DNA from: an uncultured Pseudomonadota bacterium
Lineage (GTDB): Bacteria > Pseudomonadota > Alphaproteobacteria > Rs-D84
Direction of reading: 5' to 3'
DNA: 40,796 nucleotides
Assembly: GCA_949283535.1 (NCBI GenBank)
Contig: CASDTC010000012.1
Location: 1 to 40,796 of the forward strand
Shown here: positions 14,000 through 33,320 of the stretch, in pieces
How the letters are laid out: each line of letters starts with the position of its first letter
Numbering within the stretch: position 1 is the first letter of the stretch
Notes under the pieces: model-generated
Database searches by the model: none
What the model was told of the DNA's origin: nothing
Seen by the model: only the letters and a program-made list of their open reading frames with translations
Program-made: the position numbers and the translations under genes

Positions 14000-14455
14000 A
14001 TGATTCCAGCCAACAGTTTTAAATTTTTATCCAGGTTATCAGATATTCGTGATGGGCATACAGATTCTTATAATGTTGGGTATGAATCTGGGGTATATAC
14101 TGTGTTTGCACGTAATGTTTTATTAAATGAAATGTCTGGGATTGTGAATTTAATTAATTTAATGGCATGTCGTGATTTATTTATAAAAAATGCAAATGTT
14201 TTGCGGGCGCCATGTCTGGAATATGCAGAAAATATTGTTTTGCCGTCTGTGTGTGATGCGGATTTTTCATGTTTGAATTTTGGTGATATTTACGCATTGA
14301 ACGCAAAAATAATTCGTGTTTGGAATCCGGGATATCGTGGTAAAATATATTGCGGTACAGATACAAAAATAAATGCAGGAAATGGTGCAATTATTCAACG
14401 ATTTAATGATTTAGCAAAAGCGCGTAAGTTTTATGATAAATTTTATGCCAGATAA
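14000..14455 (+). CDS. Hypothetical protein, 151 aa
   Basis: I do not recognise a family. The protein has no signal peptide or membrane segment. The stretch from about residue 55 to 110 (LFIKNANVLRAPCLEYAENIVLP, read in part, then CLNFGDIYALNAKIIRVWNPGY) alternates hydrophobic and polar residues, somewhat like degenerate leucine-rich or BspA-type repeats; that resemblance is only suggestive. AAGGTGAAGTT gives a good ribosome site. It sits between the rpsK terminator and a bidirectional terminator, so it is an insertion inside the conserved rpsK-rpoA junction. Confidence 0.75.
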   Translation: MIPANSFKFLSRLSDIRDGHTDSYNVGYESGVYTVFARNVLLNEMSGIVNLINLMACRDLFIKNANVLRAPCLEYAENIVLPSVCDADFSCLNFGDIYALNAKIIRVWNPGYRGKIYCGTDTKINAGNGAIIQRFNDLAKARKFYDKFYAR

Positions 14456-14482
14456 AAATCCCGCATATGCGGGATTTTTATC
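14451..14482. terminator. Perfect 32-bp palindromic bidirectional terminator
   Basis: Bases 14451-14482 are a perfect palindrome: GATAAAAATCCCGCAT followed by its exact reverse complement. The stop codon of the + strand gene (14453-14455) lies within it, and the stop of the minus strand gene (14483-14485) abuts it. A GC-rich core with A-runs and T-runs on both flanks allows termination in both directions. Confidence 0.9.
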
Positions 14483-16933: not shown

Positions 16934-16946
16934 TTGATGCTGGATT

Positions 16947-16974
16947 AAAAAATGCCCCAATTGGGGCATTTTTT
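16947..16974. terminator. Bidirectional terminator between rplQ and the minus-strand gene
   Basis: AAAAAATGCCCCAA and TTGGGGCATTTTTT form a perfect palindrome at 16947-16974. It ends two bases before the stop codon of the convergent gene, so it serves both transcripts. Confidence 0.88.
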
Positions 16975-17840: not shown

Positions 17841-17864
17841 TAGATGAATGTTGAAGGGATTATT

Positions 17865-20810
17865 ATGAAGAGAATATCGTTATTATGTATTCTGTTAATG
17901 GGTGTATTTGCGTTAAACGCGGATGCGGCGACCCCTGTGCAGCGTCGCGGTCAATCGGCCGCCAGTACAACTGCCGCGGCAACATCAACTTCGCGCGGCG
18001 GGACGGTTTCGGCGCGCAGTGCAACAACCGCGCGCAGTGGTGTCAGTGCCAGATCCGCCACCCCGACAACATCAAATGTAACCGCGCGCAGTGCGACAGC
18101 GGGGCGCACAACGGTAAACCGTGGTGCGGCAACAACAACGACAGGAACAACATCAACAGCGGCGCGCAGTGCAACGGTTACCGCCCGTGCAGCTGCAACA
18201 CAAAAGGTTATTGGCACTGGAACCAAGGTTGCCGCCGCAGCGGATAATGTTATTGTCAGTGAAGAATGCCGCCAGAAATACATGGGCTGTATGGATTCTT
18301 TTTGCATGTTGGATAACGACAGTGGCGGCAGGTGTATTTGCAGCGATAGAAATGCGGAACTGGATGAGGTTTTGGCACAAATAGAAGAACTGGATCAACG
18401 CAGTTATCAAATGGCAACATATGGTGTTGAAAGAATTGAAATGGGGGATTCGGCGGATACGGTTATTGCAAATGCAAATGCGGTTGCGCAATCTATTATT
18501 GATGAGGCAGAGGAAGAAGATCGTAGTCTGGATTTATCATTGTGGAATAACCCCGGCTATTTGTATGATACAGATGATGATGTTTTTTCAGATACAGAAT
18601 TTGTTGACCCAATAGAGGGGAAAGAGGGTGATGCACTGTATTCCGCGGCGGTGGATATTTGTGTTGCGCAGATTCCGGAATGTTCAAATGAAATATCTAT
18701 GTTGCAATTAATGTATTCTCAGCAGATAAAGTCTGATTGTACGGCATATGAAAACAGTTTGAAACAACAAAAGAATTCTAGCCAGCAAAAATTGTATGCG
18801 GCAGAAACCGCCTTGCGTGATGCCGCGTTGGAACAATATCAAACAGCAAATCGTTATGATTTGGGACAGTGTACAGTCGAATTTAAAAATTGTATGATTA
18901 ATACTGGTGGTTGTGGCGAGGATTTTTCGGGCTGTGCATCTATTGCGGCATTTGACGCAACAAATACACGCGGCAATCGTGCTGATGATAATACATATGA
19001 AATTCAGGGGACTGTTACCAGTATTGCAATTCAAAAATCAACATATGATATATTGCTGTCAAAAAAGCCATTGTGTGAAAGCGTAACAAAACAATGTGTT
19101 GCGGTTGCGGACCAGGTTTGGGATACATTTCTGCGAGAAGTAGCGCCGCAGGTAAAGAGTGCGGAACTGATCGCTGAAGACAATGCCAGACAAAACTGTA
19201 TCGGTAATATCTCGGCCTGTTTCCAACAGGCTTGTAAAGATAATATGGATCCGAATGACCCAGATGGCTCTTATGATATGTGTCTGACCAGACCAGAAAC
19301 CATGTTAAACCTGTGCCAGGTGCCGCTGAATGCTTGTGGAATTGATACAGAAGACCCAGAGAACTCACCAGATGATGCTAGTAAGCAAATCTGGGATTTC
19401 GTCATCGCTAGACTCCAATCTATGCGTGTCAATTCCTGTACTACTCAAGTCAAGGAATGTCTGCAATCCGAAGACCGTTGTGGCTCTGATTACACTCAAT
19501 GCATCGGGACTGATACTATTATCAGATTGTGCCCATATGATGCATTGGTCGGTTGCCAAGAAGTCTATGCAGATCAAGACATTCGTGGTGATGCCGTTTA
19601 TGAAGAACTGTATGATATGGTCCAAGGTATCATGTTAAATATTGATAACAATATGTTAACAGAATGCCAAAATGCCGCAAATGAAGCTATGATTAAAGTT
19701 TGTGGAGACACAGAAAATTGTGAAAATTTAACCGTTGATGAAAACCTGGGCGCTAGATCGCTGGAATATAAGATTTGTGAATATACAAATTATGAAGATA
19801 GTTTGCAAATTGATTATGGTAAATGCAGAACAGACGTATCACAGATTCTGGATACAGAACTGGGACGGGTTGTTGGTGCAACCAGTTCTGGATTAGGAAC
19901 TGTAAAACCATTCTCTGGAGTTATTGACGGGCTGATATATTGGGAAAGCGTTAAAGTTGGTGAAGATGGACGTTTAATTAGTGTCGATCAATATTTGATC
20001 AATACAGGTGAAACAGATTTATCCAGCACACAAAAAGATAAAATATCATCTGAACTGGCTGTATTACAAAGTAATATAGATACCGCCATTAATGCAATAG
20101 AAGCGGACCAGCGTGTACAATGGTGTAAGAACGGTCGAAAAGTTGATGGTGTACGCAATATTGTTGATCGCAGTGGAACTGAAAGTGATACCACCGCTGG
20201 CAGATTCCCACAATTAACGAAACAAATGCGTATGATTATTGCAAATGCGGCATTAAAAATAGCCAAGGATAATTATTATAAAAAATACGATGAACTGTCA
20301 GATAAAATGGAACAAGATTATGTTACCATCGGTGAACGTATGGCAGAAATACAGGGCGAAAATGCATTGGATGCACGACGTGAAATTGCACGCCAGGCAT
20401 GCGTAAATTTTGCAGAATTATCCAGCCTGCCAAAATCACCAGAACCACCGAAAAATGCATTTGGCAAAGTTTTGTCAGGATTAGCAATTGTTGCCGGTGC
20501 AATAGCAGCACCATTTACAGGTGGAGCTAGTTTTTTGGCTCTTAATGCTGTTGGAATAGCCGGTCTGTCAACAGGAAACAATGCAAATGGGGACGACGCG
20601 TCGGCACAACGTGAACTGGTTGGTTCAAAACAGTTGAATCAATGGAATTACAAGGAAACCATTACTTCAACATTTGAATGGGATACACTGGTTTGTCATA
20701 AATGCACACGCACCCAGCAATGTAATAAAACCAAGAATCCGCTGTTTGGCAGTAAATATTGCAAGGAATGGGCAGATCCAGTGGAAACATGTAATGATAC
20801 CCAATTCTGA
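17865..20810 (+). CDS. Large Cys-rich secreted protein with glycine-zipper segment, 981 aa
   Basis: Start at 17865 because GAAGGGA lies upstream and the product then opens with a signal peptide (MKRISLLCILLMGVFALNADA). Residues ~22-125 are an Ala/Arg/Ser/Thr linker with repeated ARSAT units. The body carries many paired cysteines, including CTVEFKNCMINTGGCGEDF (about 345) and VKECLQSEDRCGSDYTQC (about 528), which share the form C-x6-C-G-x4-5-C. Near residue 870 a Gly/Ala-rich hydrophobic stretch (VLSGLAIVAGAIAAPFTGG) looks like a membrane hairpin. The C-terminus has further Cys pairs (CHKCTRTQQC). I recognise no named family. It is probably a disulphide-bonded envelope or surface protein. Codon use shifts inside the gene (see findings). 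It is one of four related genes here. Confidence 0.8.
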   Translation: MKRISLLCILLMGVFALNADAATPVQRRGQSAASTTAAATSTSRGGTVSARSATTARSGVSARSATPTTSNVTARSATAGRTTVNRGAATTTTGTTSTAARSATVTARAAATQKVIGTGTKVAAAADNVIVSEECRQKYMGCMDSFCMLDNDSGGRCICSDRNAELDEVLAQIEELDQRSYQMATYGVERIEMGDSADTVIANANAVAQSIIDEAEEEDRSLDLSLWNNPGYLYDTDDDVFSDTEFVDPIEGKEGDALYSAAVDICVAQIPECSNEISMLQLMYSQQIKSDCTAYENSLKQQKNSSQQKLYAAETALRDAALEQYQTANRYDLGQCTVEFKNCMINTGGCGEDFSGCASIAAFDATNTRGNRADDNTYEIQGTVTSIAIQKSTYDILLSKKPLCESVTKQCVAVADQVWDTFLREVAPQVKSAELIAEDNARQNCIGNISACFQQACKDNMDPNDPDGSYDMCLTRPETMLNLCQVPLNACGIDTEDPENSPDDASKQIWDFVIARLQSMRVNSCTTQVKECLQSEDRCGSDYTQCIGTDTIIRLCPYDALVGCQEVYADQDIRGDAVYEELYDMVQGIMLNIDNNMLTECQNAANEAMIKVCGDTENCENLTVDENLGARSLEYKICEYTNYEDSLQIDYGKCRTDVSQILDTELGRVVGATSSGLGTVKPFSGVIDGLIYWESVKVGEDGRLISVDQYLINTGETDLSSTQKDKISSELAVLQSNIDTAINAIEADQRVQWCKNGRKVDGVRNIVDRSGTESDTTAGRFPQLTKQMRMIIANAALKIAKDNYYKKYDELSDKMEQDYVTIGERMAEIQGENALDARREIARQACVNFAELSSLPKSPEPPKNAFGKVLSGLAIVAGAIAAPFTGGASFLALNAVGIAGLSTGNNANGDDASAQRELVGSKQLNQWNYKETITSTFEWDTLVCHKCTRTQQCNKTKNPLFGSKYCKEWADPVETCNDTQF

Positions 20811-20812
20811 AT

Positions 20813-20838
20813 AAAAATCCCCCATTTGGGGGATTTTT
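20813..20838. terminator. Terminator shared by the 981-aa gene and the inverted relic
   Basis: AAAAATCCCCC at 20813-20823, loop ATTT, then GGGGGATTTTT at 20828-20838. The stem works in both directions. On the minus strand it starts at the stop codon of the relic. Confidence 0.88.
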
Positions 20839-21125
20839 AAAACTGAATATCTTCACATGTTTCAACCGCGTCATTCCATTTGGCGCAATATTTACTGCAG
20901 AACCATGGTTTTCTGACATGGGCACAATCTGATAATAGTATCAGTATCTAGCCCGATGCATTGAGTGTAATCAGAGCCACAACGGTCTTCGGATTGCAGA
21001 CATTCCTTGACTTGAGGATTGGAGTCTGGCGATGACGAAATCCCAGACCTGAGATTCAGCAGCTTCTTCTGCACTGTCTGTTGAAATTCCACAAGCATTC
21101 AGCGGCGCTACTTCTCGCAGAAATG
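20837..21125 (-). pseudogene. Inverted, deletion-ridden fragment of a paralogue of the 981-aa gene
   Basis: Read on the minus strand, this 289-bp stretch carries five collinear pieces that match the 981-aa gene. They are 21102-21126 (identical to 19125-19149), 21085-21106 (identical to 19322-19343), 21017-21046 (one mismatch to 19390-19419), 20952-21016 (65 bases identical to 19444-19508) and 20918-20945 (28 bases identical to 19509-19536). The segments between them are deleted or different, and a 6-base insertion separates the last two. The 3' end encodes CSKYCAKWNDAVETCEDIQF before a TAA, a diverged version of the C-terminus of the intact gene, but in another frame. No single reading frame spans it. 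It begins directly after the stop codon of the 343-aa gene. Confidence 0.85.
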
Positions 21126-22157
21126 TTAGTCAAGTTCGGATGGTGATGTTATAACGGTTATGCCGTCATGGCGCCATTGCGCGCGGCGTGCGTCAAGATC
21201 CATTATGTTGGTTTGTTCTAAATATAGCACGGGACGCACGCCGCGCGTTGCGGATATTGATAAAACCGTGTCTGCAGGTGATGGTTTCTGGCGACCGGCG
21301 GCAAACCATGTTTCATTATCGGCAATCCAGAAATCTGGGTCGTCATGTGTGGCGATTGCATCGTGGTCTGTTATTACAATGCCGTTTTCAATTGTAAATT
21401 TTGTGTTGTGCGATTCCAGATAATTTATAATTGTCTGATTTTCATTGCTGGTTTGTTCGTTTGGTATGCTGATATCAGGGGCGGGTAATGCTTCGTTTGT
21501 TGTATCTGGTTCATCAAAGTCGATGTCTTGGAAAACAGGTGCAAAGTTTATCGTGTTCATATCTGTATCAAAATTGTCAGATGGGATATCAAAATCATTT
21601 GGCAGCGGCAATTCGTTCGCGGGTTGCGTGACTGGGGTTGTGGCAGCCGGTATATCAGATGTTTTGTTTGTGGCTGTTATGCGGGATGTATCGAAAACAG
21701 AATGTTGTATGGGTCCCATATTATTATGGGCGCGCATAAATGGAATGCGTAATTCATCTGGTATTTTGTGCGGCAATTCGTTCGTGTTTATATCGTTGGG
21801 TGTTTTGGATTCTGGGGCAGGTTGTATTGTATCTGTGGCGGTGGATGGTGCGGGTGCCGGTTCTGCTGGTACTGGTTCCATAATTTTTGGTAATGGTATA
21901 GTGAACAGTGGGGCTTTCTTGCGAATTATAATTGTGGTTGTTGCAATGTATAATGGTATAGCGGATAGTATTAATAACCCGAATACAAAACCAGGGAACC
22001 CGCGCAATTTTGCGTGTGCCAATCGTGTCCAGTCGGTGCCAGAAAACATATCAAAATTAAACATAAAATGCAGAATCGCCCACATTGCAAAAATATAACA
22101 TGCGGTCCATATAAATGCATATCTGTGCGTTTTAAGAAAATTTAGTAATGCTTTCAT
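21126..22157 (-). CDS. Two-TM membrane protein with long soluble C-terminal part, 343 aa
   Basis: I recognise no family. Two hydrophobic segments lie at about residues 13-35 (FIWTACYIFAMWAILHFMF) and 54-76 (GFVFGLLILSAIPLYIATTT). A long Pro/Thr/Asp-rich linker (about 90-225) and a compact C-terminal domain follow. That domain contains YLESHNTKFTIENGIVITDHDAIA, DDPDFWIADNETWFAAGRQ and a final DARRAQWRHDGITVI. The pattern of Asp, Trp and Glu there is loosely like a nuclease- or NERD-type fold, but I cannot support that. No ribosome-binding site precedes the ATG, and the promoter is so close that the mRNA is probably leaderless. On the minus strand it is followed at once by the relic. Confidence 0.75.
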   Translation of the reverse strand: MKALLNFLKTHRYAFIWTACYIFAMWAILHFMFNFDMFSGTDWTRLAHAKLRGFPGFVFGLLILSAIPLYIATTTIIIRKKAPLFTIPLPKIMEPVPAEPAPAPSTATDTIQPAPESKTPNDINTNELPHKIPDELRIPFMRAHNNMGPIQHSVFDTSRITATNKTSDIPAATTPVTQPANELPLPNDFDIPSDNFDTDMNTINFAPVFQDIDFDEPDTTNEALPAPDISIPNEQTSNENQTIINYLESHNTKFTIENGIVITDHDAIATHDDPDFWIADNETWFAAGRQKPSPADTVLSISATRGVRPVLYLEQTNIMDLDARRAQWRHDGITVITSPSELD

Positions 22158-24380: not shown

Positions 24381-24399
24381 GTTTATTCGTACAAGGTGT

Positions 24400-24428
24400 A
24401 AAAAATCCCGCATTTCGCGGGATTTTTT
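24400..24428. terminator. Bidirectional terminator between the 694-aa gene and lpxI
   Basis: AAAAATCCCGC at 24401-24411 and GCGGGATTTTTT from 24417, with an ATTTC loop. It lies between two convergent stop codons (24380 and 24449). Confidence 0.85.
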
Positions 24429-33234: not shown

Positions 33235-33267
33235 AACAGTCTGTCGTGTGGCAGGCTGTTTTTTTTC
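33235..33267 (+). terminator. Terminator after the 241-aa gene
   Basis: AACAGTCTG at 33235-33243 pairs with CAGGCTGTT at 33252-33260 (nine pairs, one G-U), followed by TTTTTT. Confidence 0.8.
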
Positions 33268-33297
33268 TAGACATATATTTTAATTGTGTGTTAAGAT
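33268..33297 (+). promoter_or_regulatory. Extended -10 promoter of the autotransporter
   Basis: TAGACA at 33268-33273, an 18-bp spacer and TAAGAT at 33292-33297 preceded by TGT. The extended -10 shape TGTTAAGAT is close to those before rplQ and the 981-aa gene. Confidence 0.45.
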
Positions 33298-33320
33298 TAA
33301 TCGTACAGAGAGAATTTTTC

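Follow-up and report, generated by a model that had tools for sequence, protein, structure and literature searches.

Why does a fragment of a gene, lying inverted beside its intact counterpart, match it exactly in some patches and depart from it in others? We addressed this question in a window comprising the entire contig C12 (40,796 bases) of a MAG of 830,597 bases, which is divided into 23 contigs and is 93% complete. The relatives returned by protein search are gut alphaproteobacterial MAGs, including Candidatus Enterousia intestinigallinarum, and the window MAG is a gut alphaproteobacterium of the genus of Candidatus Enterousia. Candidatus Enterousia belongs to the order Rs-D84, and both consist of uncultured gut bacteria whose genomes do not exceed about 1 Mb (PMC12306168); a partial search of the literature found no report of phase or antigenic variation in either. 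Elsewhere in the window, a 1286-codon ORF at 33246-37106 gives a weak ankyrin-repeat match, unusual for a free-living gut bacterium.

An intact gene and its inverted relic

The intact gene is a 988-codon ORF on the plus strand (17844..20810), which yields a protein of 981 aa with an apparent signal peptide when read from 17865. Numbering residues on this 981-aa protein, we divided it into a head (residues 1-479; 17865..19301, plus strand), containing the signal peptide, a Ser/Thr/Ala-rich stretch and a Cys-containing region, a core (residues 480-640; 19302..19784, plus strand) and a tail (residues 641-981; 19785..20807, plus strand). The core is a homology arm common to the gene and to tail cassettes, and ends at the motif YKICEY (19767-19784); the tail, which occupies the expressed place, is of class A and groups with the main tail clade. 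A variable piece of the core, DTEDPENSPDDASKQ (19344..19389, plus strand), marks the stretch in which the relic agrees with the sister genome and not with its own gene; its origin was sought among about 75 cores and none was found.

No sequence relatives of the 981-aa protein were found in Pfam, NCBIfam or the PDB. An AlphaFold2 model of residues 119-981 reached a mean pLDDT of 72 and a pTM of 0.49, and Foldseek returned no match to it below E 0.4; because the model is weak and matches nothing, we claim no fold. Distant family members (26-39% identity) are encoded in the same genome on contigs C1, C2, C5 and C7. These paralogues, of approximately 740-1050 codons each, belong to an exported family without database match, and the family takes a large share of the coding capacity of the 830-kb genome.

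Between the gene and the relic, an inverted-repeat search located a palindromic hairpin resembling a bidirectional terminator (20813..20838, no strand assigned). Near-identical palindromes of this AAAAATCCCCCATTTGGGGGATTTTT type follow genes at 14452-14480, 16946-16974, 20811-20839 and 24399-24427 in the window, and recur at G000:C5:41944-41969 and at many sites in most genomes of the genus. The copies are 93-100% identical over about 29 nt, a uniformity that is unusual among ordinary terminators. On the far side of the relic lies g343 (21126..22157, minus strand), a gene of 343 aa without Pfam or NCBIfam family that served as synteny anchor.

A sequence-only reading of this DNA had reported an inverted relic carrying DNA-identical tracts opposite the intact gene, and all of these tracts were recovered, far beyond chance. 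Repeat search paired 19444-19517 with 20943-21016 (74 nt, 96%), 19509-19536 with 20918-20945 (28 nt, 100%), 19322-19351 with 21077-21106 (30 nt, 90%), 19125-19149 with 21102-21126 (25 nt, 100%), 19357-19420 with 21017-21080 (73%) and 20744-20811 with 20836-20903 (71%). The 65-base tract without mismatch described in that reading is indeed the longest exact match between gene and relic (gene 19444-19508), and the differing peptide pieces, DTEDPENSPDDASKQ in the gene and STDSAEEAAESQ in the relic, are also as described. Searched by blastn against the 830-kb genome, the main block gives E = 8.6e-43, and no further comparable copy of it was found elsewhere. The description of the relic's 3' end as only a distant paralogue did not hold, since over 109 nt this end matches the last part of the expressed gene's tail in the sister genome L056 at 90% nucleotide identity.

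Read on the minus strand, the relic passes from residues 421-428 to approximately 487-519, then to approximately 528-563, and closes with a tail's last ~25 codons. Its boundary with g343 (21102..21126) encodes residues 421-428, where the 25 exact nucleotides represent the 5' boundary of a cassette and touch the g343 stop codon. Next comes core carrying the sister-type variable piece (21037..21106), of which 65 nt are exact to the sister gene (L056 9456-9520), followed by core that is near-identical to the relic's own gene at 19401-19536 (20918..21036). This latter stretch contains 65 and 28 exact nucleotides, has one 23-nt deletion and retains 6 nt that are missing from the gene. The last ~25 codons and stop belong to a class-B tail (20837..20917; L056 10785-10893), with the stop codon at 20837-20839 followed by the terminator hairpin that the relic has in common with the gene. 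Three deletions separate these parts, of ~172 nt, of 23 nt (near residue 520) and of most of the tail; two of them occur at the 5-nt shared words GCCGC and GCCCA, as would be typical of microhomology deletions.

Apparent tail exchange in the sister genome and the genus

Gene order is conserved in the closest sister, L056 (contig CALXWX010000001.1), whose g694 and g343 are 95% and 81% identical, respectively, in nucleotides to those of the window. At the place of the relic, L056 holds an inverted open frame of 548 codons that covers residues 477-981, converges on the gene and lies against g343. From residue 41 to approximately 637-640, the window and sister genes are mostly 83-94% identical in nucleotides (82-94% within the head), the variable piece excepted. 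The first 40 residues, including the signal peptide (17865-17984), are 35% identical in amino acids and 54% in nucleotides, against 82-100% in the region that follows, making residue ~40 a second sharp divergence boundary between the two genes.

Beyond the core, the expressed-place tails of window and sister are 26-47% identical in amino acids at residues 638-717, and the class A tail ranges from 26 to 72% against its counterpart before the last block. In most blocks the window tail is nearer to the spare cassette of the sister than to its expressed tail (55 versus 26% at residues 638-677; 80 versus 40% at 798-837), the blocks nearer to the expressed tail being 758-797 and 952-981. Compared across these two species, the class-B tail occupies the expressed place in L056 and the spare place in the window, with class A showing the reverse, and on this comparison the tail classes have apparently changed places between the window species and its sister. 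Phylogenies agree with this pattern in the sense that the core tree joins the window and sister genes (0.995), whereas in the tail tree the two part, the window tail falling in the main clade and that of the sister grouping with tail 2 of G032 (1.0).

We tested whether the window and its sister differ by one clean two-state inversion and rejected this simple form, as the spare tail of the sister is too diverged: it is only ~67% identical in nucleotides to the window tail, with a dS of 1.19 versus 0.49 for the heads. The class-A tails of the two species are not clean orthologues, and therefore tails must either have been replaced at least once more in one lineage or have evolved faster. The two cores of L056 are themselves not homogenised (64-77%).

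The start of the cassette, residue 421 against the g343 stop codon, recurs in the distant G154, whose g343 is 54% identical in amino acids, and the same junction is present in eroded form in L056. Because the junction is common to all three, the cassette would be older than the window, sister and G154 species. Outside the variable piece, however, only 3 of 160 sites separate the relic from its own gene, compared to 17 of 160 for the sister gene (Poisson P = 4e-5), and across the 43 columns of the variable piece it shows no difference from the sister (0/43) and 18 from its own gene (18/43). An old copy is thus young in patches, and the patches follow different partners, a signature of segmental recombination.

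The earlier proposal that the gene recombines with its inverted partial copy is borne out by the 3/160 versus 17/160 differences in a cassette that predates the species, and between species, blocks have also been reassorted, in both the tail class and the variable piece. As to the relic being a gene-conversion donor, recombination with the gene stands, but the relic cannot be a donor of tails at present, most of its own tail having been deleted. The comparison with small minicassettes of the pilin kind was not upheld, as relatives mainly exchange the whole C-terminal tail (residues 641-981) across a shared core, through inversion or the exchange of long tracts. With so little of the spare tail left, the window genome is probably past tail switching; the remaining core fragment could still exchange short stretches with the gene. 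Comparable remnants lie inverted beside g343 in G154 (L219 3855-4079), where 137 of 225 nt form an exact match to its own gene, and in L069 (11000-11365), where a core patch of 57 nt is 96% identical to its own gene and the remnant stays open for ~92 codons, closing with the end of a foreign tail.

Across the genus, most genomes have a single gene without a cassette at this place. Where gene and cassette occur together, exact inverted core tracts extend over 352 nt in L077, over 129, 92 and 56 nt in L059, and over 77 and 72 nt in L065, and inverted repeats stand at both edges of the exchangeable segment (352, 129 and 77 nt in L077, L059 and L065, and 65 nt exact in the window). Behind these shared tracts the tails of L059 and L077 are only ~40% alike in nucleotides. 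Core trees group both copies of one genome (L059, L077, G016), whereas tail trees split the copies into distant clades. In L056, L059 and L077 no stop interrupts the spare tails over 488-548 codons, and in tail comparisons nonsynonymous divergence lies below synonymous, the pattern that would be expected if the spare tails were occasionally expressed.

The locus also coincides with breaks in assemblies. Two contig ends in G032 share exactly 141 nt, probably the word length of the assembler; immediately past YKICEY they part, one continuing into a class-A tail and the other into a class-B tail. Similar shared ends occur in G016 (141 nt), G179 (127 nt) and G027 (77 nt). Among named relatives, 11 of the 17 contig ends that fall inside the gene lie at residues 480-610 (binomial P = 1.4e-6), although any repeat may break contigs. 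Two layouts were observed: convergent tails in the window, L056, L059 and G027, and divergent heads in L065 (4839-10304), L077 (4093-8485) and, by contig order, G179 (C1/C2 starts). The divergent layout, in which promoter and head lie between inverted cores, suggests an invertible head rather than invertible tails.

A candidate tail switch and its alternatives

We consider it likely that deletions reduced an inverted alternative-tail cassette to the present relic, and that recombination between the two cores, probably by RecA, inverts or converts the locus and in this way switches tails. In its intact form, the locus would consist of head, core and tail X, the common terminator, and then an inverted core with tail Y against the stop codon of g343. 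The cassette is probably promoterless, and cassettes in the window, L056, L077, G027 and G154 begin at residues 421-508, without the start and signal of the gene. Homologous recombination between the cores, for which RecA is encoded in the window genome and would be the acting enzyme, could proceed in two ways. Crossing over would invert the stretch between the cores, joining tail Y to the head and leaving tail X as the spare, and conversion without crossing over would copy core segments, keeping cores near-identical and tails different. The tails themselves would have moved by inversion rather than by conversion. In this manner a lineage could give an exported, Cys-rich protein a different set of ~340 C-terminal residues; in the window lineage, switching would have been worn out by deletions in the cassette. 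Switching may still be active in populations of species with intact cassettes. More tentatively, and with rather less than even confidence, we extend this to a genus-wide, RecA-driven switch that alters the C-terminal third of one exported protein family by inversion, of tails in the convergent layout or of promoter and head in the divergent one, operating within living populations of these reduced-genome gut Alphaproteobacteria.

Tails could instead spread by C-terminal displacement, in which transferred tails on core-homologous DNA replace the old ones and the inverted cassette is a passive by-product, with no switching. The tail tree, in which tails move between distant species, is compatible with this, as are the lack of direct orthology between the spare tail of the sister and the tail of the window, the tandem direct copies with core patches in common in L070 and L071, and the identical cores with different tips of Rhs loci (PMC2935791). 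We nevertheless regard displacement as unlikely: the B tail is in the expressed place in the sister and an inverted spare in the window, at 90% identity including the terminator flank, and one tail in two places with orthologue-like identity means that exchange between the places is needed. Spare tails, moreover, have remained open over their full 488-548 codons.

Simple decay of an inverted duplicate that has not recombined since it arose would account for the three deletions, two of them at 5-nt shared words, for the lack of any open frame left in the relic, and for the comparable remnants in G154 and L069. It is improbable, however, given that the junction held in common with a distant species makes the duplicate old, and that the relic still equals its own gene at 157 of 160 sites, against 143 of 160 for the sister gene, yet equals the sister in the variable piece.

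We give similarly little credence to site-specific inversion by a dedicated recombinase at a core site. Recombinase-like genes do occur in the genome (one of the tyrosine and four of the serine type, including one of 212 aa), and comparing window with sister puts the tail boundary at the point found in G032, after YKICEY. The recombinase-like genes are located on contigs C1, C3, C4 and C6, with none in the window, and the long shared tracts (137-352 nt) with differing ends (before residue 610 in L077) are instead what homologous recombination should leave. We also considered YKICEY as a fixed site of recombination, which is unsupported, the homogenised tracts ending at different places.

A strain-mixture or chimeric assembly artefact had been named as the main alternative in the sequence-only reading, and the draft MAG is indeed split into 23 contigs, the window being one of them. 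We find this highly improbable, as the sister holds an intact cassette and G154 a remnant with the same junction at the same place, and the relic tail end copies nothing in the genome and is 10% diverged from any known sequence. A regulatory antisense RNA, suggested by the position of the relic next to the gene's terminator, is the least credible reading, because a transcript reading through from g343 would share the sense of the gene mRNA and could not pair with it.

Known systems and biological meaning

The closest comparison for core and tail is with Rhs loci, which have a near-identical core per locus and dissimilar tips, for which C-terminal displacement has been proposed (Jackson et al. 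2009, PMC2935791). Promoterless, dissociated core-plus-tip fragments lie beside the Rhs gene, some of them degenerate, and are described as large direct repeats downstream of it; cores and tips follow separate evolutionary paths (PMC2935791). The locus described here likewise combines a near-identical core with dissimilar tips, core and tail trees that disagree, and core-plus-tail fragments (L056, L059, L077). It differs in that its cassettes are inverted or divergent and not direct repeats, its tails are homologous to each other, and the place of the B tail differs between sister species, suggesting exchange over one-way displacement. Pfam and NCBIfam searches found no Rhs or other polymorphic-toxin domain in the 981-aa gene, and no immunity gene follows the tails in the window, L056 or L059, where the convergent ends are separated by ~30 nt holding the common terminator. 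As neither an Rhs domain nor an immunity gene was found, we do not file the tail switch as Rhs.

The proposed mechanism, by analogy, resembles silent-cassette and invertible-gene systems. At the invertible surface-layer locus sap of Campylobacter fetus, partial-gene recombination joins one promoter to alternative coding parts, and the divergent layout of L077, L065 and G179 similarly looks like an invertible head; here, however, the constant part is ~640 residues long and the tail is exchanged. Neisseria pilE/pilS and Borrelia vlsE have promoterless partial copies that exchange segments with an expressed gene for an exported protein. Partial copies exchange segments with an exported-protein gene here as well, but each locus has one spare tail and no array, the main unit is the whole tail, and the inverted geometry permits true inversion. 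Shufflons (pilV) and invertible hsdS loci switch C-termini or domains by DNA inversion, as proposed here, using short recombination sites and an adjacent recombinase in contrast to the long homologous tracts, with no recombinase nearby, of the present locus.

The relic in the window is most likely the fossil of an undescribed protein-tail-switching system. What is unusual about this system is its inverted, convergent layout, in which the homologous cores are long and no recombinase is close by, and the independent remnants in several species make its history readable. A tail switch also accounts for the repeated failure of assembly at one gene across the genus. If tail switching is true, genomes of ~1 Mb spend coding capacity on diversifying an envelope protein, whose variable tail would face the host, phages or competitors; this would point to pressure from host immunity, phages or neighbours.
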